In this document: piece after piece, positions 2,642-19,965 of the stretch
Layout: the number at the start of each line of letters is the position of its first letter
How positions within the stretch are numbered: position 1 is the first letter of the stretch
Source: Thelephora terrestris
Taxonomy: Eukaryota; Basidiomycota; Agaricomycetes; Thelephorales; Thelephoraceae
Length of the DNA stretch: 64,000 nucleotides
Assembly: GCA_015956445.1 (NCBI GenBank)
Contig: WIUZ02000007.1
Coordinates: forward strand, 1,736,001 to 1,800,000
Direction: 5' to 3'
The notes under the pieces: model-generated
Told to the model about the DNA's origin: nothing
Databases searched by the model: none
The model's input: the letters and a program-made list of their open reading frames with translations, nothing else
Translations under genes and position numbers: made by a program

Positions 2642-3763
2642 CTACGTTGCCATCACTAATATTAAGACCTTTGCTGCTACCCTGGCCCCGTCGAGGAAGG
2701 GGACTGTGATGTGCTCATTGGGGCTTGTTATGGGCTGGACGTGGATTGTCAACAGTGTTTGCGGTCACGGAGCGGTTAGAGACCTACGTATGACTTTCCT
2801 CTCACGCAAACCTTCTCGCTCCTACGTGAACCACTCCGTATGACCACTTCCAAGGAGATCTGTACCCCCGCGAAGTCTAAATATCCTTTGTCTGTTTCTA
2901 GCACCCAGGTTTGGGGGCTGTTCCTGCGTGGGACTCAGCGGTAGCGGCGATAATTAGAATGGACGGAGCGCGTACCATGTATATTCACCCCAATCGTTTT
3001 GAAAATCCGTCGGAGCAGTCATGTAGTCTTTGAATTTGTACCTGAGCTTGACATGGAATTCCTGTGAAGGCGGCTGATCGTTTGGGAACTTGATCCCGTG
3101 AACATGCCACTCATATTTCTTTGCCGACTCTCCCGCCGCGAACAGCCTCGGAAGAGTGCGGATTAATTTGGGACGCGATTTGAGCTTACGGTACACTTCG
3201 CCAATCGGTGGGCGTTCCTGAGGCCTCCTCCTCCAGCATTTTGCGAGGAGTCCCCAGAAGGTGTCATCAAACACCCCAGGAGGCCGCGCGGGCACCACCG
3301 GAAATGCCCGATGGGAACCATCCCAGTACGGGACTATCCCCGTTAGAAGCTAGGAAGCCGACGTGAGTTTTGTTTCTCGCGCAGGATGGTATGGATTTGA
3401 CCTCGTAAATGACTATGGCCATTCCATACACGTCGCTTTCCATCGACTTTATTTCTGGTACCCCGTAAGGGAAGTCTTTGATATCAGCCGGAGGGGTAGG
3501 TCGCGAGCGAAGCAGTGTAGCGATATTTGACTCGTCGGACATTGCAATAGTCGGCGTGTCAGGTATGGCAATCGCCAATCGGGCATTTCCGTCGTCGTCG
3601 ATTAACATGTGCTCCTGAAGAGCGTGTTAACCTTGACGGCTTGACGAATGACAGCCAAGTCTCACGTACTGGCCGGAAAGAGCCATGGACTATTCCATTG
3701 GAATGTAGGAAGCGCAACCCTTTGACCGCGCCCAATAACTGTTCGTGAGGTTCATGTCAGCAT
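2642..3763 (-). pseudogene. Kinase copy B, 3' part (split by transposon)
   Basis: This is the C-terminal part of kinase copy B, whose 5' part lies at 17767-19965. It encodes the end of the second kinase domain: LHSNG at the catalytic-loop position (no HRD Asp), then ILIDDDGNARLAIA where DFG should be, DVYGMAIVIYEV (helix F), and a C-lobe with CWRRRPQERPPI. A beta-rich C2-like tail follows (WHVHGIKFPND, FHVKLRY, WGEYTW). The stop, by alignment to copies C and D, is near 2642. The reading frame is broken in an exon at 3755 by the 14-kb element; no other disabling change was noticed. Without the insertion the gene would look intact. Confidence 0.75.
3756..3763. repeat. 8-bp target site duplication, left copy
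   Basis: GTCAGCAT lies immediately outside the left terminal repeat and is repeated exactly at 17767-17774. Kinase copies C (gtaagcat, 37377-37384) and D (gtgagcat, 44442-44449) carry the single, unoccupied equivalent. Confidence 0.95.
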
Positions 3764-3910
3764 TATCCTGTACGGATCGGTTCAAAAATAATAGGCCCGA
3801 TTATCGCGATTATTGCCCTATTTTCGCCATTTATAGCTCCTTTCTTTGCAAGTCCAAACCTTCTCCCTATCCACGCTTTTCAATGATAGGATATGATACC
3901 CCTTTTCCCA
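3764..3910 (+). repeat. Left terminal inverted repeat
   Basis: Read inward, it matches the reverse complement of 17621-17766. By eye the first 80 positions differ at one base (position 66), and similarity then decays to about 145 bp. Outermost bases are TATCCTGTACGGATCGG. Confidence 0.93.
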
Positions 3911-4012
3911 AATACAGGTTTTTTTCGATTATTGCCTCAGATTGTTCGATTATTGGTGTTAAAGGTATTGTACACTAGGATAAAATCATTGATTCATATG
4001 CTTCTATGTGCG

Positions 4013-4060
4013 CAATAATTGCATCCAATAATTGTGTGCAATAATTGCGCCCAATAATTG
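4013..4060 (+). repeat. Left subterminal array, CAATAATTG x4
   Basis: CAATAATTG occurs exactly at 4013, 4026, 4039 and 4052, a strict 13-bp period. The array begins 249 bp inside the left end. The reverse complement recurs four times near the right end, 259 bp inside. This is the layout expected of transposase-binding sites. Confidence 0.85.
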
Positions 4061-4186
4061 CATAAAAGGTTTTGATAAACGTGCACAAACAACACGGGTT
4101 GAAATGCTATGTCGTGCCACAATGTGATCGACCAATTTGAACCACATCCAGCCCGATCAGGATATACTGGAAGGGTGGCTAACCCG

Positions 4187-4470
4187 GATGTCTGGGGGAG
4201 CCCTTGTGGTGGTTATGCTGCACCCTCAGTCTAACCAGGATGTCCTGGAAAGATGCGGCCTTCCTGGATGTCCAGGGAGGCCAGAGGAGCATGCATCTGA
4301 TCATTTGTTTCGCCTTAGATTCCAACCAGGCCTTCCTGGGGGGGATGTGGCCTTCCTGGATGTCCAGGGAGGCCAGAAGAGCATACAATTGGTCGTTTGC
4401 TTCACCCTTCAATCTGCCAGGATGTCCTGGAAGGAGTTGGCTGACCTGGAAGTCCAGGAACGTCAGGGGT
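4187..4470. repeat. GGATGTCC-core repeat cluster, left
   Basis: CCTGGATGTCCAGG occurs at 4263-4276 and 4355-4368. The variant CCAGGATGTCCTGG occurs at 4235-4248 and 4417-4430. Each is a near-palindrome around GGATGTCC, embedded in longer repeats with GGCCTTCC and GGAGGCCAG. A second cluster lies at 13820-13985. The open frames across this region are repeat-driven and not considered genes. Confidence 0.75.
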
Positions 4471-5098
4471 GATGTGTATTAAATATTGCTTAATATATAC
4501 ATATATGGTATTTACCTGCTCATCTGTAGGAGCCTTGAGGGAGAGTGGCGACCAGGGGTAATTTATGAGGGTAGCAACAAGAAATGAGATGGGTCACGAC
4601 TGTGAGATGACCCATGCACAGAGAGGGAGAATCTAGTATATTCTGCGTGGCTACACTGACCTAAATACAAAGTCAAACTGGAGACACTGCAAAGGGTTTG
4701 GAAACCGGACTTTATGTCATGAACCCCATGAGGTCAAGTGATTGTGACATGGAGTCAACTCACATCAGGATTGCAATGGTGTCAAGCAATCTCTTGAAGG
4801 TCTTATATGAAGATCAATGCAAGAAGATGGACATGTACTTTATCCGCCATTGGAGGCACTGGGGGGGGATAGCTGTGATCATCATTGTATACACGTTCAT
4901 GATTAGGGAGACAGGTAGACAGATTCTGTACGTAAAGATTATTGCTAGTAGGCGATGCGGAAGAAACAGAGTCTGCTATGTCATTATGGACGGGACAGGA
5001 ATGATGGACATGAAGGATGCGTAAAGAGAGCGACACGAGTTAGTCAGAAACGGAGAATGGGGCACCTATGGGAACAGGACAGGGTGGAACAGCGGACA
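4471..5098. other. Non-coding stretch inside element
   Basis: AT-rich at 4480-4520, then low-complexity sequence with small open frames lacking recognisable motifs. No gene is supported. It separates the left repeat cluster from the 3' end of the cysteine-cluster gene. Confidence 0.4.
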
Positions 5099-6714
5099 TC
5101 AAAAGTTCCAAAGCTCTGATTCCTCGTCGCTCAACCAGGCCGGATTGTCAATCTCATTCTTGAATGAGGCGGAGTGTTGGAGGCGGAGTGCCAACGTATT
5201 GACGTCGCGGTGGTTGTCACGGGAGGATCCCTCGATGAACTCTGGTGTTTCAGGGACGATCGTATCTTGGGCCTTTAGAGGCATGCCTATAGAAACCCTA
5301 TTAGTATGCTATCCACTGTGTATGTGAAGGACATAACTTACGGCGGGCACGCTTCTTGGGATGTTCAATGACCTTGACGTCGTCGACCTCAGTGTCCTCA
5401 TCGATATCAATGGTGGAGATATCTTTGGGGCTGTCTGAGGAGTCAGAGGAGATGGATACTGAATCTGTGAGGTGCTATGAGACTGCCACTGATTAGGCTG
5501 GACTATATGCTTACTGGATCTACGACGCTTTAGGGAGTCGACCGGAATCAGGGGAGCTTGGGATGGAGAGAACCACTCGTCAATGACCTCCTGTGGGATG
5601 CGTCTTCTGGTAACTTTTACCGGCCTGTTAGTGCCCTTCAATTGGGTATATGTATGGAATGACTTACCTAGATAGAGGGTCTTGGCCTTGAACCCTACAC
5701 CCTTTGCCTTTCCACTGCTCATGGAGTCTACATATGAGTCGGCGGTTGGGTGGGTGTCGTCAACCAGGGAGTAGTTCTTCCGGTTCTTCTTGAGGAGGAT
5801 GTAAGGCAATTGGTAGCTGAGCCTCTTCAGGCCAGTAGAGTCGGACTCGTCAGGGATGTCTTGGAATCCAGTGGTGGTTGCATCAAAGTAGCCGAAGAGG
5901 GTGGGGAAGTGGAGGCGAAGGAAGGCATTCATTTGTTTGGTGCCCCAACTGAGACGGATCGAAAACCCTGGCTTGCTGGCCTCATTGGCTAGGCCAGCAT
6001 TAATCCAAGGCTCTAATGCTGTAGAGTTGATTGACGGAAAGGTGAATCGGGTGAGGTTCTAGTCAAATGTCAGATAAAGCATTCACTGATGAATGCAGGT
6101 GGTCGGCATACCTGTTCACCACATGGGAAGAACACGATCCTACCAAATGCTACTGAATCCTTCACCTTGCTTTGGGTGGCGACCCTACTGGAGACAGCCC
6201 TGGACGTAGTCTTCCCCTTGGTGGATGGGGCATTGGACTGATGGCGTCAGATGTGGGGTTAGCAGGTGGTGGAATAGAGAGATAATGGACTCACCGAAGC
6301 CGATGGGGTTGGACGGAAGCCCTGCAGGGTTTCCTTCCTCGCCTTCTCATGTGTGGCAGAGGCCTTGAGGGACTTAGCTAGACGATCAACATACTTGTTG
6401 TGGTCCCGTTGAGTTGCTGCAACAGCAATATGCTCATGGGATTGGGTGGCAGGGGGATCGGAGTGCGAGGCCAGGCTATGATTGCATTCCTTGCACCTCG
6501 ACTTCCTTGACTTCCTGGGAACAAAGGCCACACATTCACAGTCGACGTCTTCATCTGAAGATCCAAGGCAGATCGAAGGCATTGGGAGGGAAACCCTGGG
6601 GATGGTGGGAATAGAGAAGGAAAAGGAGTGTGGGGGTAAATGTTGAGAGGAGGGAAAGAGGAGATGATGAGAGGAGAAGGCGGAATCCTGCTTTATGTGG
6701 TCCATGGTAGACAT
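5099..6714 (-). CDS. Cysteine-cluster hypothetical protein, transposon-borne
   Basis: A multi-exon minus-strand gene. Exon 1 (6714 to about 6295) has a Cys/His cluster near residues 60-85: CECVAFVPRKS then CKECNHSLASH, a likely zinc-binding C-x-C...C-x2-C-x-H-x4-H. Exon 2 (about 6237-6112) reads VAFGRIVFFPCGEQ up to a GTATG donor. Exon 3 (from about 6060) holds GFSIRLSWGTKQMNAFLR and LHFPTLFGYFD, a segment I associate with a widespread uncharacterised Agaricomycete family that also starts with a C..C..H cluster. After a Lys/Arg- and Ser-rich tract, a last exon (5284-5099) ends at a stop. The start could be 6714 or an internal Met (MPSICLG). Role unknown; the basic tract and zinc cluster would suit nucleic-acid or chromatin binding, which is inference. 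Confidence 0.6.
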
Positions 6715-6812
6715 AGATCACGTGATGGGGCGATCATACAGGATGAGATAAAAGAGAACGTGGGCTGCGCATGCCATCTCTCATCCCCCACCCTTCACAC
6801 TTCCCATCCAGA

Positions 6813-7929
6813 ATGTCAGATATCACCATGCCGCCAACGCCTCCACCAACACAAAACCCACAAGAGCAGTGGGTGATTAGACGGAATGGTCAGGCGATTC
6901 GGCATGCGCACTTTTACGACACAGGCAAAACACTAAGGGATCCTGTAATCCTGCGGGTGGGTTCCATTTGTCATGTTCACTATCACACCGCGATTTATTG
7001 TGCAGGCAGAGGATACCCTCTACAGACAATCGGCTCACTCCCTTAGCCAAGTGAGCAACTTCTTTGCTTCTGCCTTCTCGATTTCAGGCATCACAAGCCC
7101 TGAGGAGGGGACCTCAGATGATTGCCCCATCTTCCTCCCTTCATCAGTCACATGTGCGGACTTTGAGGTCCTCCTATGGTTCCAGATAGAGTAGGTCTAT
7201 TTCCCTCAATCGCTGAGGTATCACTTACAAATTGGGCATGATGCCAGCTACAATCCGGATCCCTCACAGGACACCCTCTTACGTGCAATATCAATCTCCA
7301 GGCGTTGGTCGGTTCAAAGCCTGTACAATTACGCGTTTGACCACTTCAAGCGAAAGTTTGAGAGTGGTAACATTCACCCTGCCATTGTCCTTGGTGTTGC
7401 CCGAGAGTATGGTATCCCTGCCCTCATCAGCCCAGCAGTCAGGGCCTTGGCCAGCCCTGACATATCACTCTCCAGCTGGTCAGTCAACCTCGACATCATA
7501 CTCCACATGTCTGTTGTGGATATTGGTGCCATTGGCCGGATGAAGGAGAGACTCCTTGATACACGCACCGCCCTCTGCACACCACCACCTGACATTCACG
7601 ATCAGGGGACATGCTCAGGCACAAATCGCACTCTGTGTTCTGCATCCTGGAGGAGCTTCTGGGCTTCGGAAGTCGTGCCACAACTTCTGGGGACCAATGG
7701 CAAGGATGCCAGTAGGCTCCAGGAGGTAAGGGATGGTGTCATGAATGCCAAGGTCCTCGGAATGATGGGGAAGTGTATAACCCAAACAGTCACAGGTGCA
7801 ATCGGAAAGCCTGCATGGAAGGCTGAAGCAAAGATTACTGATGGGGCGGTGAAACTCCTCATGGTTGAGGAGCGTGGTATGCTGGCGGCAGGGGACATTT
7901 CAGATGATGAAGTGAAGATGGCTGAGTGA
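6813..7929 (+). CDS. BTB/POZ-domain protein, transposon-borne
   Basis: Three exons (6813-6956, 7006-7190, 7248-7929) give 336 residues in one frame, with GT-AG introns of 49 and 57 nt. The exon 1/2 junction creates DPVILR-AEDTLYRQSAHSL, the usual opening of fungal BTB domains. FFASAFSI, DDCPIFLPSSVTCADFEVLLW and SIS.RWSVQSLYNYAFD continue the fold, and HPAIVLGVAREYGIPALI is the typical segment just after it. BTB domains mediate dimerisation and often recruit Cullin-3 ligases. The C-terminal 200 residues are unrecognised. It sits back to back with the cysteine-cluster gene (about 100 bp between starts, 6715-6812), suggesting a shared divergent promoter. It looks intact. As transposon cargo it may affect host chromatin or protein turnover; that is inference. 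Confidence 0.8.
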
Positions 7930-8481
7930 TGTGACACTTTTGGGGTATCTAGTGACAAGGCCTCCAGAGATCTCTGTTGTTATTCTGCTCTCCACCCTTG
8001 AGGTGAACCTCCTTTGCTCTCGTGCCCCCCCCCTTTGTAGTTTACGTCATGGACTATCTCTTGCCTTCACCCATGCCTATCCCTTTGTGATTCTTCCAGG
8101 GTTTTTTGTGGATCATCTAGGTGGGGCAATGCAACCCCATTACATATGCCAGTCATCCTGTACACGTCTATATGAGGCCAGCCATCCTGTACACATCATT
8201 GTGACCATTTACGTATCCTGTGGGGTCAAATTGGGTTCTCTTTACTAACCTTTTACTAACAGGATAATGGTTGAACGATGTGACAGTGGTTGAATGACAA
8301 TACACCGCGCAGTCCATTTACGTACTATTCTATGTACTCCCTACATGTTTCAATGCGCATCAAAAGATCTAGAGCCTTACACCACACTACAATTCGAGGG
8401 AACCATATATCATGGGGAAGGGGAATGACTAAGGGCCTCGATGAACGTCCAGTCCTGTATGACTCCGACGATTCATACTCA
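7930..8481. other. Convergent intergenic spacer in element
   Basis: Lies between the 3' ends of the BTB gene and the transposase gene. Short open frames only, with no motif. Near-repeats around 8160-8200 (CCAG.CATCCTGTACAC) are visible. Presumably both 3' untranslated regions. Confidence 0.4.
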
Positions 8482-10439
8482 TCATTCAGATTGAATCCCT
8501 GCTGGGTAATCCTCTGACAAAAGGGCATCATCTAGGGCATGTGCAAAGACTTCACCTTCACCTGTGTTCATGGGAGGCACCGTGGATGGAGCAACCCCTG
8601 CTGCCTCATGTCGGACATTCCCACCCTGTGCTGCTGCAATCACCTGTGCAATATCCCTCCACGAGCCTGCCAATCCAGGTTCAGACCCATCCATCAGATC
8701 CCCATCGGTATCTGAGTTAGAGTCATCATCTGAATCGGAGCCGCCATCGCCATCGCTATCTGATCCCACACCGTTGCTGGAGTTGGGCTCTGAGTCAGAG
8801 CTGTGGGATGATGATGTAGAGCTAGAGCCAGAGCTAGAGCCAGAGCCAGAGCCAGAGCCAGTACCATAATAGTGATGTAGTAGATCTGGATCCACGTCAT
8901 CCACTGCATCATAGACGCCATGCATGGTCTGGCCCAACAGCCGGAGATCCTATTGAATGTTGGGCACTAAGCAGGATTGAGACTTTGGCATTTGGTACAT
9001 ACCACTGGGCTCATGTTCGCCCCCTTTCCAGATATGGGGTGGTTGTTCCAGTCCTTGATGAACTCCTTGCAGTCATGCTGTATATCCTCGAGGAAGAGGG
9101 TATGAAGGAGCCAGATGTGGTGGGGATTCTGCCTATCAAGGCGATGAAGCCTTTCAAGGCGGGTAAAGAAGGCCCTCCAGCTACGGGCGAAGTGGCGGCC
9201 AATCTCAAGCCACATCCTCTCGATCCGGGTATTATTTGTAGAGCTGTATGCATACGGTTACCATTCAATTTACAAAAATGCTTGTGGGGTGTCACCTACG
9301 TTCCCCACATGAATGAAGCACGATTTGGACCGCGGTACATAATCATCCATGTACACAGGTCAACATTCTCTGACCCCCTGTCTCCCCTAACACGATAGGG
9401 ACACCCAAACTCCTCGATGGCATCGAGGAAGAGCTTGAGAACAGTCTGTGATGTGTTGCGTGTGTCAACACGCATGCCAGTGATCTGGTGAGGGATGGGA
9501 GATCAATGTTATCATTCTTCTGAGGGCATGATGCCAACGTACCATCCTATCATATCCATCAACAAACCCATGAACCACAATGCCCCAGGGCCCGAGCTTA
9601 TGATGCCCATCAACATGCCATAGGGCGTTTGGCCTGCTTGACTCATATTCACGGCGCTTGATGGCCTTTCTCTGGAACATGACCTTTGCAACACTGTCGA
9701 CTCGGCTGAGAGAAGCAATAATCCGTTCCCGTTGGACACGCATCCCTTGCTGAGATAGGTAGCCACGTATATAACGAATCCCTGTGTTTGGATGGACTGC
9801 TTTATACTCCTTGATGGCCATGTCAAGTGAGGAGTCCGACATAGTTGAGAATGGCTGTCGCTCTATCCCATATTGACGCATGTATCTCTTGACTGTGCTT
9901 ATGTGGATACCAAGTGATGATGCCAGCTTTGGGATGCCAATATTTCGCCCTGGTCTAAAGGCCTCCTTGAGGAATTCCTCTGAGATGACCTTCTTGGGGC
10001 GACCACGCCCCCCGCATTTCTCAACTGTGACCACCTCAATTTTTGAGACTCTCAAGGCTTCACTATTCTGGGGATGAGCTATGAGCCATGATACAAATGG
10101 GGGGCTGACCTACGCCGATGTTGCCCGATCTTGGGCGGCATGTAGTCCACTAATGAGTAGTGCCATGGAATCTCTGATTGTCCTAATGTAGCTGGATGGG
10201 AGAGGGCTATCTGTCTGGGAGCCAAGGACATCAATTATTGTTGTCATGAACGTCTCTGCCTGTTTGATATGGTGGCCGAGCCGGACAGGGTCGGATTCAT
10301 CGAGATTTACAGCCCGTCGTGAAGCCAAAAATGCTGCACTTAGTCCACGGTGGGCCTCAGTCACATCGGCTGACCATGGAGCAGAGGGGGAGGGAGGGAG
10401 AGAGGGGAGTGCCAATGGGATAAGGACTGGAGCGGACAT
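8482..10439 (-). CDS. Integrase-type DDE transposase
   Basis: Five exons (10439-10114, 10062-9543, 9484-9300, 9243-9003, 8949-8482) join in frame to 579 residues; the four introns are 51-58 nt, GT-AG. After a Pro-rich N-terminus comes GRGRPKK (AT-hook-like), then a helix-turn-helix region (IPKLASSLGIHISTVKRYM). The retroviral-integrase-like core has RPNALWHVDGHHKL (first Asp), VRGDRGSEN (second Asp) and NTRIERMW (Glu), with 34 residues between the second Asp and the Glu. The C-terminus is a Gly-Ser repeat and an Asp/Ser-rich acidic tail. All three acidic residues are present and I saw no stop or frameshift, so it may be active. It is the only recombinase in the element and should mobilise it. 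The exact superfamily is unknown to me; the start could be further upstream. Confidence 0.85.
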
Positions 10440-10745
10440 GGGAAGCGTTACTGTCCCCCAAGCCCCTCAAAGGGGACATGTGATGTGTATCCCTCGGAGC
10501 CGGACCCAGTGTCGGAAGCAATCTGAGATTACAATCCAATCATCATCGGTCATGATGGGAACGGTTGGTGGGCTCCATGGGCCCTTTCCGATTCTAAATA
10601 GTAGAGCTGACAAGGGGCATGGCCCACAACCTCTAGCAAAGTTTGTAGTGTTCGATCGTAATACGGGACTTGTGAAATCACTTTGTTTCATGCTCTGACA
10701 ACCTACTAATCGTACAAACCTTACATCGAGAGATCCCTTCGTAAC
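10440..10745 (-). other. Upstream region of transposase, possible extra exon
   Basis: Minus-strand frames here (MTDDDWIVISDCF at about 10550, then HITCPL) run open into 10467 and could be an alternative 5' exon or leader of the transposase. I cannot choose a splice site. A short direct repeat (ctcaaaggggacatgt) occurs at about 10467 and 10948. Confidence 0.25.
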
Positions 10746-10945
10746 TTAATCCCTTGCAAATCACATTACATACTGTCCTGCATTGCCACCGTCCCCTCCA
10801 GGTGGGCAGGTTCGAGAGCATGGGAAGGCTATGAATTATGGGTTATTTGTCAGGAACTCAATGGGATAGTTCAATAGGCGGTGGGGATTCAGGCACCAGA
10901 TGTGTGTGACAGAGAGGCTGGGGGGGTTTGAAACCATCCTCCCAC

Positions 10946-11298
10946 TCAAAGGGGACATGTTCTGCAGGGGATGTAGGTCCCACTCCAGTAAGCCCTCAGC
11001 AAGTAGGGGTGAGGGCTGATAGAGAGCGTGTGATTAACCTGAGTGCTGATTGAAGGATCCAGGAATAGTTGGATGTCATCGAGAAGGGATGGCCTTTCTG
11101 TAGTCGTGTGAGTTAGCAGGAGGGAACAAGCATCAACTTTGTTCGGGAGGTGGAGGATGGCAGTCGGCGGAGCAGTGGTGGTGGCAATTGTAATCCTGGA
11201 GGTGGCAGTATATTGCAAAGCATATCAGGAGAACGAACCATGAAACCATTCAACCTGAGGCCTTGTGTGGATGGGTCATAGTAGGAGTACCGTGTCAT
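10946..11298 (-). CDS. Hypothetical small gene
   Basis: Two overlapping minus-strand frames (starting MTRYSYYDPSTQGLRLNG at 11298, and a second through 11218-10946 with LLDDIQLFLDPSISTQ and HPYLLRAYWSG) look protein-like and could be joined by a small intron. No domain is recognised. Its place between the transposase and the acidic gene, on the same strand, would make it another element gene. It could equally be chance. Confidence 0.25.
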
Positions 11299-11639
11299 GG
11301 TAGGTCAAGTCAGCCCGCCATGAAATGGCAAAAGCACGACTGGAACACACCACTATGATGGCATCAATGCTTTGTCGTATACACTTTTCTTTCAAGACAT
11401 TGATAGATCCGAGCGGCCTACCTAGCTACGAATATAAATACAAGCTGTATCTACCTCAGATTAATCATCCTCAGTCTCTTCCTTCGCCCTCTGCTCTTAT
11501 AATTTTTTACCGGCTCAAGATAGCGTTCAACATGGGACACTCGTCCAACGTGGGAACCCACTGCGATGCTGTTTCTTGCAATTGGGAGAAGACCCCTTTA
11601 TGGAGGGTTTGAGCGGCTAGAGTGGCTAGTAATAGGGTG

Positions 11640-12054
11640 AGTATGGCTTTCATCCTGCCGGTTGGCATGGCTTGTCATTGCCCGCAGACATATCATATAC
11701 CTCTTGGACCAAAACCGGCCTCAAGGTAGGTGACCTTGGAGTCTTCCATCTTCTATGGCTCTTCCATCGTTGGGAAATATTGTCGGAGCTCTGATGCTTT
11801 CCTGAACTGAACAGTGATGCAGGTGGTATTCTCAGGAAGCCAGACGTTAAGGAGACAGGAGATGGCGGCCCAGGACCTGGAGCCTGGATGAGTGTATGTG
11901 GGCTGGACGAGACAGTTGTGGGTGCCTGTTGGGTCGGAGTCATCAAAGTCTGGAGGGAGAGTCGATTTAAAGGCCTTGCTGGCATTGGTGAAGACAACAA
12001 CAATAGCAACACAATCACATTCATTGGAGTAATTCAAAACCGCAGACATAGGCA
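11640..12054 (-). CDS. Hypothetical small gene
   Basis: A minus-strand frame starting MPMSAVLNYSNECDCVA at 12054 and ending near 11756 (FPTMEEP), with a possible continuation in another frame to 11650. No recognised domain. The stretch between it and the previous candidate (11299-11640) holds nothing else I can support. Confidence 0.25.
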
Positions 12055-12156
12055 TGGTCAGAAAAAAACGTAGTATGCAAAACAAAATTGAATGAGGCAG
12101 TCCTGGTAGTATCAACTTCGGCCATCGTCGCCAGGGGTGCTGTTGTTGTGGGGGGG

Positions 12157-13589
12157 CTATGAGCCAGAGTTGGAGGGAGTAACCGCCCCAACCATCTCCT
12201 CCTCCTGATCATCACCCTCCGCATCCAAACCCTCCAGTTCGCCCTCCGCATCCAGATCATCCTGTTCGCTCTCATCCTCATCTCCTTCCACTCGGGGAAC
12301 CTCTCTCATTTGTGCTGCAACCGTGATCGAACCTTGGCTCCTGGCACTGCTTGACTGAGCATCTCTCTGCTGCAGTGCCGCTTGAAGGAAAGGGAGCTAT
12401 AGAAATGTTTGAGAAATGTTAAAAGAGATTGGATTTAGCACATACCACACGTTCACGTTTGAGCTCACTGTCGAAGAATCCTTCAAGGTGCAAACGGACA
12501 ATAGCATTCACCTCGACTTCGTTGAATGAGGGAATCCCTCGCTCCTTTGAGAGTCCCGCACGCTTCAGCGCCTCTATGATGAGGTCATGCGTCTCCAGCG
12601 AATCCAAATAGTCCCCCCTGCTTTCGACGCTCTGCGTCCCCGCAATGACTGCGAGGTGCCATAGGGCCTCCCGGCTATAGATGATGTTCCGGCGATAAAC
12701 CCGGACGTGCTTGGGGTCAAGGGGATTATCCTTGAGGTAAAAGCGGGTGATATCGACGATGGTTGGTAGATCTGCCCCAGGGGCAATTGCAGCTTTGATG
12801 GATGGACCGTATGGATCCGGGACTCCCTTCAGCTGGCGAATGAGGATTGGGGAAAGGGCCTTCAATGGGGCGGCACGGATCGGCCCCGCTGCGTTGTCCC
12901 TGTCAAGCTCTTGACCGACCGCCTCAAGGACGTTCCCTGCGTAGGCCATTCGACGTAGTGATTCATGGCCACGGTCATGGAACCCATGCTTTCGCTCCTG
13001 AAGGAGCTGGTGGATGATCCGTGCGTTCTGTGGATGAACCTTTCGCCGTATCCAGGCTGACCATTGATATGTCTGCTTGTTGGCCACCTTCCGGCGTCGC
13101 CGATAGGAAATCTCGCATGTTTCGCCCTCACTCCACTGAAGAAACTTCTTGAGGCTTGGAGCGGGGACATCGAATCCATATCTCCGTATGCCACTGTATG
13201 TGGTTCAGAGTTAGCATAGCCATAGACAAGGTCAGACCCAGTACTTACATATGTGGTTTCGGCTTGTACTGCTGAAGAGTCCCGTCGGGGTCTTCATCCG
13301 TCTCGTCCCGAGTATCCCGGAGGTTGGGGGTGGGGAATGGATCCGGATCTGCCTCGTTGTATACCGTTCCTTTTTTGAACACCCGGGTCGGGTTTACAGC
13401 GTCGAAAAGGATGTACGAGGGGAAGTTTTGGTAGATCTTCCAGCGATCTACCATGTCTTTGGCGCAGCGTTCGGCAACAGGACGATCCATCTTCGAGCGG
13501 TCGGTTGTATCCTCGTATCTCGGAGGATCGGAGTCAGAATCAGTGCTGACTCTGCGCTTGTGCTGCTTGGAGTTCTTCCTTTTGGTCAT
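12157..13589 (-). CDS. Hypothetical acidic-tailed protein of the element
   Basis: Three exons (13589-13249, 13193-12446, 12396-12157) join in frame to 442 residues with GT-AG introns of 55 and 49 nt. The N-terminus is basic (MTKRKNSKQHKRR, a likely nuclear signal). The middle is helical and conserved-looking (YGFDVPAPSLKKFL, then QWSAWIRRKVHPQNARI). The C-terminus is strongly acidic (Glu/Asp repeats around EGDEDESEQDD). No known domain was recognised. It is intact, on the transposase strand about 1.7 kb upstream, and spliced in the same style, so probably part of the element's core set. Its function could be structural or regulatory in transposition; there is no direct evidence. Confidence 0.65.
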
Positions 13590-13819
13590 CGCTGGACCGG
13601 TGAAGAGCTTGATCGTTATCCCTGCAACGAGGGGGAACAGAGAAAATTGCTGGAGGCTTCGATCACTGTGATCCGGCGTTACCGTAACGCGTAACGGACG
13701 CGCGGTGTGTAAACAGAAGCAAACAACGCGGATGATCAAAACGCGATCGACGATCGACAACCAACCGTGGACGTGAACCTCTACCATGCAAACCCGACTC
13801 TGGAAATTTCCAGAAAGGG

Positions 13820-14003
13820 TGGCCAGCCTGGATGTCCAGGATGGCCTGCTGGAAATGTTTCGCCCGCCTCCTCACTTCCAACCAGGAGTTCCTGGTTGGA
13901 TTTGGCCTGCCTGGATGTCCAGGAAGGCTTGAGCGATTTTGGTATGGCAGCCAGCCTGGATGTCCAGGAAGGCTGCCAGCCCATACCCCCCCCCCCCCCC
14001 CCC
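13820..14003. repeat. GGATGTCC-core repeat cluster, right, plus C18 tract
   Basis: CCTGGATGTCCAGG occurs at 13827-13840, 13910-13923 and 13955-13968, each in the same orientation as the two exact copies in the left cluster. It is followed by a run of 18 C at 13986-14003. Open frames on both strands here derive from the repeat and are not annotated. Confidence 0.75.
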
Positions 14004-14039
14004 GCTTCAACCAGGCACGTTTAATGCATCGTCGGGGCA

Positions 14040-14910
14040 GCCATATCTAACATATCCTGCTGTGAACAGGGACCCACTCGTTACCCATGCGTTCGAAGTT
14101 CGAACGCGAACAGAACTTGAACCGAACCGAGAGGACCCAAACGCGAACTGAACGGGTGGTCACGTTCGCGTTCACCACCGCCAAGGATAGCAGTCAAGTT
14201 TGGTGTTTGCGTTCGTCAAAACTTGCCTGAACCAGACGTGAACCAGACTACGAGAACATTAATATAGGACGGTTGCCAGCCGCACTTCCCACTTCAATAA
14301 GGCGTGTTTGAAGTGTTGTCAGTGTCATATTATTTTTAAGGCATGCTTCACCCTTTTGAGACTCGCTTCGTTGATAGTGATGTATGTTATTTTTGACATA
14401 ACTTTTGATTGTGTGCTCGCAATATTCATACTCGCCTGCATTCCACGTTCAACACATTCCGCTTCCCGCCCAGTAGTTAACGTCACGGTTTGTCCGCTTC
14501 CACCCACCACTCCACTAATAGAGCTAGACCTATGATACTGAAAACACATCCCTCCCTCTTCGTATTTGACCAGCTCCGTGCGACTCGTGCAGAGCGTGTG
14601 AACTTCTTCCATATCAGGAGGAGATAGTTGTACCGTGTGCAGGCGGTCTCCACCATTGCACATCACTCAATATCATACCCTGATAGGTTTTTTTTGTATT
14701 TTAAGAGAGAAACTATATACTCTGAATTGATTCCCAGCTTTTGAGCCCTTAGAAATAAGGGGATAAGCCTACAGCAGCATGGGTCGGGCATGCCCTCAGC
14801 CCTCAGCCGCTGATCAATGATGTCATGGGTGGCTTAAGCGCTCCGAGACTCGAGACAGGCCGCGCGTTCACGACTCATACCGCAACCCCCCACCTCAACT
14901 CCCCGCAGCT
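14040..14910. other. Non-coding stretch with GTTCG-type repeats
   Basis: 14085-14260 is rich in GTTCG/CGAAC words (for example gcgttcgaagttcgaacgcg), giving local hairpin potential. The remainder up to the start codon at 14911 is AT-rich with no supported gene; it presumably contains the promoter of the zinc-domain gene. Confidence 0.4.
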
Positions 14911-17336
14911 ATGTCATCTCCAGTAGGACCATCCCAGGCGACACAAAGCTCCTCCTATCCAGGGACCCCGGATGAGGAATTTGAAGGCTACTTCTCAAAT
15001 GTTCACGCTGCCGCTGAGGCTTTCATTCTTGGCCAGGGATATGAATCAGTATCCCAGGATCGGCTGCGAAGAATTATGAACAAAGACTGGATAAAGCTGT
15101 GTACGTCTATCCCACACCGTACACAACCGCTCCACACAATATGGGCTCATCCTCTCATAAGTCAAGCGGCGGGGTATCAATCAGACCAAGACCTTATCAA
15201 CAAAGGCCAAAGAGTGTATCACGAAGGACTTGGCTGCAGGGAGATATGCGGACAGGGAGAATGCAAATGAGTCGGCACTCATGGCGCCATCTTCAGATCC
15301 TCGGGACTATTCACATGTGAGTTTAGAATTCAGCTCCTCATCTCTGCAGCGACTTACCAAGGGCAGTGGTGTACGCTCTGCATGGACTTTGCATTGCAGC
15401 TGATCCTGTGCGCTGGGTGTCGGGTTGGCGTCTGCTACCCATCCATCGGCTCGACAAAAGGGTGTGTGGCATGGGATGAAAGGATCGAACAGGACGACTT
15501 TGTCTTCTTCTGCCCATTCTGCGCAAGGTCCGCCAAGGTTACGTGCCCAGTATGACCTGTTGCTTTCACTTCCCACCCCCATCACTAATCTATTCCAGCT
15601 CACATTGGCAGAGCCAGAGAGGGTTCCAAAGAAGGACTTGACCCTATTCCGTTGCGACCCTCCTGCCCTCGTAATCTCGATTGTGTGGCACACAACGAGA
15701 CACCCATTCATAAATACGTTTCGAAGCCACCTCCAAGGCAGATATTCCGGCAATGAGAAGTCGGTATGTATTCCTCATGTGCATTGAAGAGGGTGGAGGT
15801 GATGACGTCCTAATAGGTGAAGTTCATGGACCGCAGCCTGCAGCATACATCGGGGGAAAACGATGAACGTCTCACGGGGTCACAGGCGGCAGCAGACGCC
15901 ATTGAATTCTTGGAGGCCAATCCCTACGCAAAGATTGTAGTGATTATCGACACCCATGTCGCCGAAAACAGGATATTTCGTTTGGGCCAAAGATGCGAAT
16001 GGGGACTACCAGGCGTGCTCGCTCCTGGAGGTGGGTGTTGCCTGTTGGCTAATGTGCCTTCCTGCTCACACTGCCTTCACAGATCCTTCAAGACTGTACT
16101 CCCAAGGAGATCTTCAATTACATGTCCGATGCAGAGGATGCCCCGTCCCACCACCACAAGATGCTAATCGTGAATCTTGCCTGCGGAGCTTCGGTCTCTC
16201 TGCCCCAGCCACGGAGTGAACTGCTTACTGGGTATGTGCCATGCATCAGACTCTCCCGGTCACACACACACGCTTACCAGCTCACACACATCAGCCACTG
16301 CGCCGATGCAGTGCTGTCATTTGCAACAAACACGACAATCACCAGTGAGGTAGCGCCCGTTCTGCTTCCCCTGATCTCAGATTGGGTGCAGACCTCCTCC
16401 GACTATGATGTTCTGATAGCAAAGTCCGTTCAAGCCGGATGGGCACACAGGAACCACCCTGTGCTATCCAGGCGTGGTCATGACCCTTCCCGTTACACCA
16501 AATTCACGTCCACTGAAGAGCCACATGTCATGGCATCGGGCAAGGACGATCACATCCTTTATACCCGGTTCGACCTTGGCCAGCCTGGCGGAAGAATAGT
16601 CAGGTGTTTCCGTGGATGTGAAAAGGGGATTGGTGCCAAACCGGGGAAGAATACTGTGCGCATCAAATGCGATGGATGTAAGTACAGGACTACCATTCCA
16701 GCATTCAGGTCGTCGACAGAAACGACACTGGGAAGGTTTTCACTGGTTGCGGTGGCGTACCCACAGGAGCTCTATCCTACCCCTCACTGGAATCCCACCA
16801 ACACAGAAAATGATCAGGCGGGTCCCTCGATGCTGACGCCAGCCCCTCCCCCTGCAACGCCAACCCCTCCTCCAGAAAGGTCAACCTGCACCTCTCAAGA
16901 GCCGGTACCCCCTCCTTCTCCTCCTCTCCAGTCAACGCTGCGCCCACCACGTCTGGATCCAATGGTGCGATCAATATCTCTCCCCTCGATGACAAGCACA
17001 GAATCCACCACACCCATGCAACGTAGGCTCCCCACAATCCGGATCCCCCCACGGCCTTTGCGCCAAGGCTCCCCAACGATTCGGATCCCCTCACGGCCAT
17101 TGGGCCAAGGCTCCTTGACAGCTGTGGAGTCCAGGAGGGCAGGCACTCGGAGCGCCACCGCCACCCCACCTGAACCTCGGAGCGCCACCGCCACCCCACC
17201 CAAACCCCAAAAGCGACCACAGAGCAAGTCGCCCGAGCCTGAGACTGAGCCTTGGATGAGCGACCTGGTTAGCAGGATGTGGCAAAAGAAGCGAAGGCGT
17301 GGGGATGACCATCCCCCCACACCACCAATGTCTTAG
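14911..17336 (+). pseudogene. Zinc-domain protein with His/Cys pair, likely frameshifted
   Basis: A multi-exon plus-strand gene. Exon 1 starts MSSPVGPSQATQ and splices (15101-15163) into KRRGINQTKTLS. The third exon carries a cysteine-rich module: WCTLCMDF, LCAGCRVGVC, FFCPFCARS. Then come KIVVIIDTH (about 15930-15957) and, in exon 6, MLIVNLACGASVS (about 16160-16195). The spacing of a strand ending in His and a strand ending in Cys resembles the dyad of caspase/CHAT folds; this is inference from motif shape only. A second C..C cluster (CFRGCEKG, KCDGCKYR) lies near 16610-16690, and the tail is Pro/Ser/Arg-rich. Around 15955-15970 the frame shifts by one base inside an exon, so this copy is probably broken unless the sequence has an error. 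I associate the family with repeated Agaricomycete proteins of unknown function. Confidence 0.55.
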
Positions 17337-17426
17337 ATATATTCTGTATCACGTAGCACAGACTCAATGTAGGTTTAATTAACAGAATGAAAATACCAAA
17401 CACAATGATTGGATGCAACTATTGTA

Positions 17427-17507
17427 CAATTATTGGATGCAATTATCGTACAATTATTGGATTCAATTATCGGACAATTATTGGATGCAATTATCAGACA
17501 ATTATTG
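17427..17507 (-). repeat. Right subterminal array, CAATTATTG x4
   Basis: CAATTATTG (reverse complement of the left motif) occurs at 17427, 17451, 17475 and 17499, a strict 24-bp period with GGATGCAATTAT-type spacers. It ends 259 bp from the right terminus, mirroring the left array. Confidence 0.85.
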
Positions 17508-17620
17508 GACGCAATTATCAGATACAATCATTGAGGTGTACAACGAAACCAAGACCCCATTTAAAGGCTGAACACATGAATAGGCTACCCAAAGACAATA
17601 ATCGTAAGTACATAATATTT

Positions 17621-17766
17621 ACAACGAAAGGGGTGTATTATTTATGACAGAAAAGTGTGGATAAGAAGAGGGTTTGGACTTGTAGCAAAGGAGCTATAAA
17701 CGGCGAAAATAGGGCAATAATCGCGATAATCGGGCCTATTATTTTTGAACCGATCCGTACAGGATA
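17621..17766 (-). repeat. Right terminal inverted repeat
   Basis: Reverse complement begins TATCCTGTACGGATCGG and matches 3764-3910 as described for the left repeat. Confidence 0.93.
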
Positions 17767-17774
17767 GTCAGCAT
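17767..17774. repeat. 8-bp target site duplication, right copy
   Basis: GTCAGCAT, identical to 3756-3763. Downstream sequence resumes kinase copy B exactly where copies C and D continue. Confidence 0.95.
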
Positions 17775-19965
17775 CGGTAATGCACGGTCAGATCGGATAT
17801 ACTGGCCAAGTCATATCGATCTATGTCAGGATTCTTCTTCAAATATTGTTCGATGTCGCCATTTTTGTACCAGGGAAACACCAGACAGAAGTCGGAGATG
17901 GTCGTCGAGACCCCGTAGAAAGGAATAATGTTCTTATGTTCTATTTGCTTCATCAAAACCGCTGCTGCGCAAAACCGCTGCACCATCCGTCAGCTGCAAC
18001 GCCAAAAGAGCCCCCTGCTTGGGGTCATACAACACGCTTACCTGTTTGGCCATTTTTATGTCAGAGTCGCCTGTGGGCAAGCATAAATCCTTGCGCGCAT
18101 CGGCCTCACTTTTGTTTGGGGGCAGCCTAAGAACCTTGAGTGCCACAGTCTCACCGTCGTACGTGCCCTCCCAAATCTCGGTCATGCCGGAGACTCGTTG
18201 GGCGCGGTCCCCTTGCATCACGACACCCCCCAGTCCATAGGACGCTGGGACTGTATGCCATAGAGTACATAACTGCGAGAGCTCGATATAATGCTTCCCC
18301 TTCGGCCCTTCCTTTTCATTCGCGAGACCCTTGAAAAGAATGATCAGAGCGAGGAGGAGACCGAGCGAATGTCATTACCCTTGAAAGCTCGTTGATGCGC
18401 CGGTAAGCACTTGGAAAGCCGACGGGGGTCGTAACTGTGGGAAAGTTAGAGATGTGAATTGACCATGTTACGAGCAGCGAAGGGTGGAAAGTGGACAATC
18501 ACCGCAATCAACGCCTTTTGCCCTAGATTCTTTCTTTGCCGGTTGCGGTCGACTTGGGCAGGATACCTGCAAGTTTGCAGCATACGGCCTGTAGCTGCAG
18601 GAAGCAAAAGCATGTCATGATTGCGGTTTTGCAAAGGTGCGATGTACTGGCCATTCACGAAAACTCCGAACCACTTCTGCCATGGCGGGCCGACAAGCAG
18701 GGACTTGTTGCCAACAAGCAAGTGTTACTTCCCATACCGAGTCTGTTAAACTCGGTTCTCGCGGACGATCCGGCCGTTCGCCGCTTATAATCTTCGACAC
18801 CGTGACCATGTGATTAAACTCGCTGAAGGGACTCTTTCCTGTGAAAACCTTACAGAGGTTCAAGTGTTAGGCAAACCAGTCCACATTCAATATCAGGTGC
18901 AGGGAGGCGCGATGACTGACCTCCACAACAACCATCCCAAAAGAATACACGTCCGCTTCTCGAGTGTTTCTATCGCCGCTCTCGAGAACCTCCGGCGCGG
19001 CCCACCTTTCAGTATATCCCTGTACGTTGGTCACGAGAACAGAGCTCAGCCCACGAACGACTGAAGTGAGGCCGAAATCTGCCAGACAGGCGTGACCGGT
19101 ATGGTCGATAAGAATGTTGGGCTAATCAAGGGTTACTGATGCAGCTCAAAAGGAAGTAGAGATAGAACCTGCTCCTTTCAGGTCTCCGTGCGTCGTGTGA
19201 TTTGCATGGATGTAGTCAAGACCTTCTGCCACATCTAACAGCTTGAAAAAAAAGTTGACGGTCAAGCACTGTTTGGAGAAGAAAAAACTTACCAAGCCAA
19301 CCCGATTTACCCTTGGATTATTGATGACGTAGTTTGTTAGAGTCCCATTTGGCATCCACTCCGAAACAAATTGCAAGGGATTTCGTGTGGCGCCAATGAA
19401 AGCAACAACGTTCGGATGCTCGAACCTTTTCCATGTGATTGCCTCTTTGCAAAATGCCTACGTGACGATAGCATCTTTCGGTAGAAAAGCTGATGACAGA
19501 TACTCACCTTCTCGACGGCCTCACGACTTTGCTCAGAAAGCCTCAAGCGCTTGATGCAAACCTTGCGGCCGTTGTGAGTGCCTTTCCATACGTCGGAAAA
19601 GCCGCCAAAGTCGAATGGGTCATCACCAACTCGGGCGAGATCACCCAGAATTGCATACGAAGATGGCAGGATTGCGTTATGGCCACAGATGGTTCGTAGT
19701 TTGTGTAGACATCGTCGGAACACATCGTCAGCAATCGGGATGGCATCAAGGATCTGTAGAGTCTGTTCTGTAAGCTGGGATAGGCCAAGAGGAAGGAGCA
19801 CACTTCATCAAGGAAATCGACGAGGCGAATCAACTCCGATCCTTGAAGAGTGGTCAAATGTTGTTCTTCATCATCACTTCGCAACAAGCAGTAGAGGTAG
19901 CGCAAGACGTCAGAGGAAGAAGTATCGAGCGAATAGAGGTGTTGTAAGACTTGTGCAGTGGACAT
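17767..19965 (-). pseudogene. Kinase copy B, 5' part (split by transposon)
   Basis: The start Met at 19965 opens MSTAQVLQHLYSLDTSS, shared with copies C, D and E. After the first intron comes DVFRRCLHKLRTICG, typical of Agaricomycete TKL kinases. Kinase domain 1 has FGGFSDVWKG (glycine loop), KVCIKRLRL (ATP-binding Lys), HPNVVAFIG, THGDLKG (catalytic Asp kept), a DFG-type segment, and CWQQ with ACRPAMAEVV (C-lobe). Domain 2 follows: a weak glycine loop (SGMTEIWEG), ETVALKVLRL, KNIIPFYGV and FPWYKNGDIEQYL. The exon is then cut by the 14-kb element. Domain 1 should be active and domain 2 is a pseudokinase. Reassembled with 2642-3755 the gene would be near complete. A truncated protein could still be made from this half; that is inference. 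Confidence 0.8.

Follow-up and report, generated by a model that had tools for sequence, protein, structure and literature searches.

We analysed a 64,000-nucleotide window of the genome of Thelephora terrestris and found that it contains a transposon of 14,003 bp (window positions 3764–17766) with terminal inverted repeats, a target-site duplication, a spliced D-D-E transposase gene and four further spliced genes, here called A, B, D and 'BTB'. The element is very probably an autonomous-type DNA transposon of the IS3EU superfamily that carries these four genes as a conserved accessory module. Its filing under IS3EU was made on profile matches, termini and duplications, and published IS3EU elements were compared by their descriptions.

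Comparison of the window with itself revealed inverted arms at 3764–3843 and 17687–17766 that are 99% complementary over 80 nt, and a further inverted stretch of 40 nt in the element ends (83% complementary). In an alignment of both ends, the outer bases were identical at 60 of 60 positions. The 24-nt terminus, searched with up to 3 mismatches, occurred at two sites in the window, both of them element ends, with 0.00 expected (0 in 100 shuffles). The 8-bp duplication at the flanks is exact, the sequence running gtcagcat, TATCC...GGATA and gtcagcat again. An initial annotation of the window had reported near-perfect inverted repeats, an exact 8-bp duplication and a spliced D-D-E transposase, all of which we confirmed at exactly the coordinates given for the element. 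It had also listed four other spliced genes; all are present, with the frame of gene A broken in the window copy. The insertion site was also found unoccupied. The joined flanks with one GTCAGCAT match contig C39 (1962–2412) at 99% along all of their 450 bases; across the 34 bases of the junction there is 1 mismatch, which lies outside the duplication. Since the unoccupied site carries a single GTCAGCAT, we conclude that insertion of the element was precise. The right flank matches C39 at 98%. Because the downstream blocks on C39 and on C58, the contig of the window, score alike against the flank query, C39 is probably the other, unmerged haplotype of C58. Of the two versions of this site in the assembly, one carries the element.

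We detected further copies through the 17-bp terminus, which in the genome contigs marks 15 element ends, 13 of them as an exact match and two with 1 mismatch; a reversed-pattern control gave 3 matches, placing the 2-mismatch level at chance, and four 2-mismatch matches and one chance match in locus L023 were excluded. Ten of the 15 ends pair as five complete copies, on C58 (the window copy, 14.0 kb), C23 (14.0 kb), C12 (15.8 kb), C5 (15.0 kb) and C3 (20.9 kb), and the five single ends, on C18, C19, C24, C34 and C51, belong to elements cut by contig ends. The copies on C58 and C23 are 99.2% identical over their full length. All five complete copies start with TATCC and end with GGATA, and between these ends all five carry the five genes in the same order. 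This agrees with the initial view of a large transposon with an integrase-type transposase whose genes travel together, as do relatives of A and B near a divergent transposase (below). Differences in copy size are due largely to insertions, which lie, in window coordinates, at 5300–5305, 11491–11495 and 13312–13316 in C3, at 7629–7637 in C24, at 13530 in C5 and between 14823 and 14874 in C12. Several insertions inside these four copies bear short direct repeats (L009–L017, L020). The C12 copy is 86–91% identical to the window over ~10.3–15.3 kb, compared with 92–100% in other comparable 500-base bins, and looks like a mosaic.

Two duplication lengths occur within this one family (window copy and loci L009–L021). 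Duplications of 8 bp flank the copies on C58 (GTCAGCAT) and C12 (CCGAGTGA), and duplications of 6 bp flank those on C3 (GATCAT), C23 (GTGATA) and C5 (GGCTAC), that is, three of the five complete copies. TTATAC is common to the ends on C24 and C18, which may represent one copy with a 6-bp duplication split by a contig break.

The core of the transposase is open throughout and contains three GT-AG introns (58, 56 and 53 bp). Its catalytic residues D153, D210 and E245 are kept in a stretch of 347 residues, with 34 residues between the last two. Two Pfam families exceeded their cut-offs in the transposase, rva_4 (an integrase-core family; 187.5 bits, E = 2.9e-55, cut-off 26) and rve (40.8 bits, E = 2.8e-10, cut-off 32.6), and the scan returned nothing besides these above cut-off. 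The best NCBIfam transposase matches, both below the models' own cut-offs, were IS481 (58.1 bits, E = 9.7e-16) and IS3 (44.8 bits, E = 9.5e-12). An HHCC domain is excluded because the core contains a single cysteine in the 152 residues that precede its first D; the probable N-terminal exon contains none.

Published elements are cited here from excerpts of the papers named. Every complete IS3EU family has TA..TA termini; the duplications are usually of 6 bp, and an HHCC domain is lacking (PMC10045372). The tree in that paper leaves IS3EU/GingerRoot and IS481EU unseparated. The Thelephora element shares with these IS3EU/GingerRoot elements the TA..TA termini, the absence of an HHCC domain before the D-D-E core and kinship to IS3/IS481, but differs in the 8-bp duplications of two of its five copies and in its gene set, which is absent from the description in the excerpt of that paper. 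TET/JBP-carrying IS3EU elements have been reported from rusts and Tuber indicum, those of seven rusts having 6-bp duplications and a TET/JBP gene between the transposase and an alpha-kinase gene (Kojima 2025, PMC12730594). Like them, our element has an IS3EU-type transposase, TA..TA termini and several genes within one fungal element, and most complete copies of its family have 6-bp duplications. The rust elements, however, combine TAYGG..CCRTA termini with TET/JBP and alpha-kinase genes, whereas TATCC..GGATA termini enclose A, B, D and 'BTB' here; Pfam found no TET/JBP or alpha-kinase match among the element stretches and proteins scanned. IS3EU has also been annotated in Ganoderma (PMC8955403), and the excerpt of PMC6431247 contains nothing on this kind of element. 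The set of A, B, D and 'BTB' is not described in the open-licence literature searched (Repbase lies outside this scope). The element thus looks like an IS3EU variant equipped with an accessory module of its own and not like a separate class, the new part being the gene set.

The gene B model is identical, letter for letter, to NCBI protein P0007. Gene A, which encodes 694 amino acids in C23, comprises a PHD-like C8 cluster, a middle domain, another cysteine cluster and a tail rich in proline. Its motifs DTH and HCADAVLS are present in all four rows of alignment A1 and NLACG in three of them; the remaining row, P0006, looks badly predicted there. None of the four accessory genes matched a Pfam family over its cut-off, and NCBIfam gave no match for gene A or B. 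The zinc label initially given to gene A is weak, with a zf-PHD-like Pfam signal at E 0.1–0.53. The 'BTB' gene and gene D have no Pfam match, the former not even at E up to 10, and matches of the 'BTB' gene in the Protein Data Bank (PDB) were weak (best DNMT3A, E 0.37). The BTB identity proposed initially is not supported by Pfam, and 'BTB' serves here as a name. A PDB match of the gene B family (E 0.69) and a PADLOC match to HamA in one of the four members of A1 (E 0.023) were taken as chance. By eye, DTH..NGYF.W, NLACG and HCADAVLS of gene A look like the segments that carry His and Cys in caspase-like folds. Pfam gave no peptidase match for gene A, a profile search against PDB found nothing up to E 10, two domain-only searches found nothing, and a PDB match to procaspase-7 (E 1.8) lay in a different register in the alignment and was counted as chance. 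A caspase-like identity of gene A is a guess, as is a chromatin- or proteolysis-related role for the carried genes.

We compared the codons of the C23 copy with those of the other copies for the five genes (23 gene pairs), leaving out of translation and of the ratio of non-synonymous to synonymous substitution rates (dN/dS) gene B of C5, gene D of C3 and the 'BTB' gene of C24, which are stretched by insertions. dN/dS was below 1 (0.05–0.43) in 20 of the 23 pairs, which share ancestry and are therefore not independent, and which include broken-frame rows read in the frame of C23. Two pairs had a dS of 0, and the transposase of C12 gave 1.49 on 12 differences, of which 2 are silent. In comparisons with more distant lineages, dN/dS was 0.15–0.21 for the transposase (C3, C5), 0.34–0.43 for A (C3, C5), 0.21 for B (C12), 0.18–0.20 for 'BTB' (C3, C5) and 0.39 for D (C5). 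These values give an indication that purifying selection mostly maintains the element genes.

Several observations weigh against an IS3EU element with a conserved, functional module, the shared ancestry of the pairs just described among them. Duplications of 8 bp, the window's included, flank two of the five complete copies, as against the 6 bp usual for IS3EU, and all loci examined come from one species, T. terrestris. Many copies also carry broken genes. The frame of gene A is broken by a 1-bp insertion in the window copy and is broken in C5 also; it reads through in C23, C3, C12, C18 and C19, and C24 stops before A. The transposase is broken in C5, as is its tail in C3, and over its last few residues the window copy differs in frame from those on C23, C12 and C24. 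Gene B is broken in C3 (an insertion and one stop), C5 and C24. Gene D has lost its frame in C5 and C12, and in C3 it is split; the 'BTB' gene has a single stop in C5 and is split in C24. Finally, the NCBI models of gene A (P0001–P0003, 620–639 aa) are spliced differently and omit the cysteine-cluster exon wholly or partly; we kept this exon because the relative on C60 has the same cysteines.

Matches to rva_4 exons number at least 45 in the genome and include several families. One, with at least seven members (C20, C34, C58:484k, C12:733k, C4, C1 and C59), is 97–99.5% identical over the compared shared DNA and extends, with its ends, past the stretches covered; the members on C60 and C11 are 99.4% identical, and those at C23:2682k, C8 and C23:858k are 73–75% identical. 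Relatives of A and B (33–53% identity) are adjacent on C60, C11, C6, C1, C23:94k and C59:1529–1531k. An rva_4 transposase lies ~5 kb from the B relative on C60 and ~15 kb from it on C11, and none of the listed rva_4 matches, which are a lower bound, lies near the A–B relatives on C6, C1, C23:94k and C59:1529–1531k. B and A are divergently oriented and lie 1.3 kb apart in the window and ~2 kb apart on C60, where B starts at 112068. Relatives of both were also found among metagenome proteins (29–68% identity); the A and B protein searches scored the 8000 candidates sharing most words, and the relatives listed are partial. Patterns for B and A matched viral contigs 35 and 143 times, respectively, and none of these matches was confirmed. 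Weak relatives of 'BTB' (E 2.1e-8 and 2.3e-6; 21–22% identity) lie within 2 kb of rva_4 at C23:2681k and C8:588k, and in this genome gene D was seen in the window element's own family only.

On C60, positions 99886 to beyond 119.0k (L057–L059, L032, L035) form a second unit with rva_4, B and A. Its left end is read as C60:99886 because homology to C27:3397–3474 begins there with TATGAAGG; the apparent terminus, TATGAAGGGGTTTCCTGG, again starts with TA, and homology to C11 begins 75 bases further in than that to C27. The right end of the C60/C11 family was not found in a search with up to 3 mismatches. In the C60 unit, CCTGGAATTCCAGG-type palindromes are densely arrayed and the minus strand has a long open frame (106.4–107.2k), and at C60:119049–119888 (L057 from ~5050) lies a high-copy repeat of ~0.84 kb with inverted halves and many genome matches.

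Repeated motifs also lie within the element. The subterminal arrays are of an ATTATTG type, left and right being partly complementary. All six window matches of the palindrome CCTGGAWNTCCAGG fall within the element, with 0.01 expected for the window. This palindrome is present in 11 of 59 loci, nine of them parts of the C3, C23, C12, C5 and C24 copies and two belonging to the C60 unit. Ten of the 11 palindromes on C60 lie at 112782–113588 in the B–A gap, the other at 117877, and the gap contains the palindrome in both the window family and the C60 family. This suggests CCTGGAWNTCCAGG as a candidate binding site for an element protein. The observed/expected ratio of CpG is 0.62 in the element versus 0.91 in window 17767–64000. 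Of the C-to-T and G-to-A differences that set the other copies apart from that in the window, about half lie in CpG: 21 of 39 in C23, 104 of 228 in C12, 173 of 335 in C5 and 100 of 194 in C3. The loss of CpG would fit past methylation of the element.

Coordinates of the features of the element, in window positions.
Feature	Position	Strand	Remarks
Left target-site duplication	3756..3763	.	GTCAGCAT; single copy at empty site C39:2208-2241
Left terminal inverted repeat	3764..3888	+	begins TATCCTGTACGGATCGG
Left subterminal array, 13 bp	4007..4063	+	CAATAATTGCATC; complementary to right array
Palindromes, left cluster	4230..4468	.	CCTGGAWNTCCAGG at 4263, 4355, 4445
Gene D	5099..6582	-	422 aa; N-terminal CxC/CxxC cluster; exons 6582-6295, 6237-6112, 6058-5515, 5464-5342, 5286-5099
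'BTB' gene	6813..7929	+	336 aa; exons 6813-6956, 7006-7190, 7248-7929
Transposase core	8482..10067	-	HTH-like N part, rva_4 D-D-E domain, acidic tail; exons 10067-9543, 9484-9300, 9243-9003, 8949-8482
Probable N-terminal transposase exon	10110..10439	-	start MSAPVL at 10439; putative splice to core
Gene B	12157..13589	-	442 aa; acidic tail; exons 13589-13249, 13193-12446, 12396-12157
Palindrome cluster upstream of gene B	13827..13968	.	CCTGGATGTCCAGG at 13827, 13910, 13955; same place in C60 family
Gene A	14911..17336	+	exons 14911-15100, 15162-15316, 15367-15537, 15599-15763, 15817-16030 (1-bp insertion here), 16083-16231, 16295-17336
Right subterminal array, 24 bp	17402..17519	+	ACAATTATTGGATGCAATTATCGG; 4.9 copies
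Right terminal inverted repeat	17643..17766	-	
Right target-site duplication	17767..17774	.	GTCAGCAT; single copy at empty site

Genes resembling protein kinases surround the insertion, at window 17768–19121 on the minus strand and probably also at 2954–3756. A right-flank piece matches a kinase family (PK_Tyr_Ser-Thr, E = 8.3e-9), and the Pfam scan found no kinase match in three left-flank pieces. As the joined sequence reads, the left flank may continue the kinase-like gene of the right flank, which would place the insertion within a short intron. DNA relatives of the right flank occur elsewhere on C58 and also on C39 and C13. At gathering scores, Rfam matched nothing in the window.

We propose that the rva_4 transposase would bind the inverted repeats and probably also the ATTATTG subterminal arrays, and would free the 14-kb unit, or copy it, at the TA ends; the unit would then be joined to a target cut with a stagger of 6 or 8 bp. 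Bacterial IS3 moves by copy-out-paste-in. Given the kinship of the transposase to IS3/IS481, this route may replace cut-and-paste, a possibility that we hold to be somewhat doubtful and that is compatible with the IS3EU explanation, in which it changes the release step only. The accessory genes are no chance passengers because they keep the same order in five copies, are mostly under purifying selection and have A–B relatives paired near a divergent transposase. Their most likely role would be to help expression or transposition of the element against host silencing, beside which we cite its CpG depletion. It is rather unlikely, on present indications, that this mushroom lineage of IS3EU has a regulatory and counter-silencing machinery of its own of a specific kind, in which A (a PHD-like finger joined with a His/Cys domain of caspase- or CHAT-like type) and B would act as a pair under CCTGGAWNTCCAGG operator palindromes lying between them. 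In this reading the transposon would encode a chromatin-directed protease, and its transposase would produce two discrete stagger lengths of 6 and 8 bp.

Other origins were considered against IS3EU. The mixture of 8 bp in C58 and C12 with 6 bp in C3, C23 and C5 might mark a separate superfamily, or an IS481EU-like one, among the IS3/IS481-derived eukaryotic transposons. NCBIfam scores IS481 better than IS3, and IS481EU, like our family, has more than one duplication length per family (PMC10045372). The IS481EU elements of Trichomonas vaginalis described in that excerpt, however, have TNT..AYA ends and duplications of ~4, 15 and 25 bp, as against TATCC..GGATA and 6 or 8 bp here, with 6 bp in three of five copies as in IS3EU; we consider this origin improbable. 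The initial annotation had likewise raised a possibly undescribed element class, with the 8-bp duplication as its mark. This is not supported: that length is in the minority (two of five complete copies), the rva_4/IS481/IS3 kinship, TA..TA termini and 6-bp majority match IS3EU, and multi-gene fungal IS3EU elements are already published (PMC12730594).

The 8-bp duplications of the window copy and C12 would also suit a Zisupton/KDZ or hAT element, and mushroom elements of the KDZ type carry TET/JBP genes (PMC12730594). Only rva_4 and rve reach the Pfam cut-off, and three other complete copies have 6 bp, which makes this origin extremely unlikely. Zisupton/KDZ, Polinton/Maverick and Starship elements are alike in being large and having extra genes. 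Zisupton/KDZ elements use a KDZ transposase, Polinton/Maverick elements PolB and an integrase, and Starships a tyrosine recombinase (DUF3435) captain. We found no Pfam match to a KDZ transposase, PolB, capsid or tyrosine recombinase (DUF3435) in the ten element stretches and spliced proteins that the scan covered, the rest of the element lying outside it. Hardly any weight attaches to the idea of host genes caught, as a composite or by chance, between two transposon ends that are unrelated to each other: the insertions that enlarge C3, C5, C12 and C24 attest that such structures form, but the same five genes, order and ends in five of five copies and an empty site for one of them contradict it.

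The element widens the range of multi-gene IS3EU transposons, published so far with TET/JBP and alpha-kinase genes, by a different gene set from T. terrestris, a mushroom-forming fungus. Its family also illustrates how classification can go astray when it relies on the duplication length of one copy. The recent-looking family, with C58 and C23 at 99.2% identity, and the empty allele make transposition and accessory-gene function testable. Families A and B, absent from Pfam, are apparently kept under selection inside transposons. If they counter silencing, they would represent a second answer to the challenge that other transposons of fungi presumably meet with TET/JBP.

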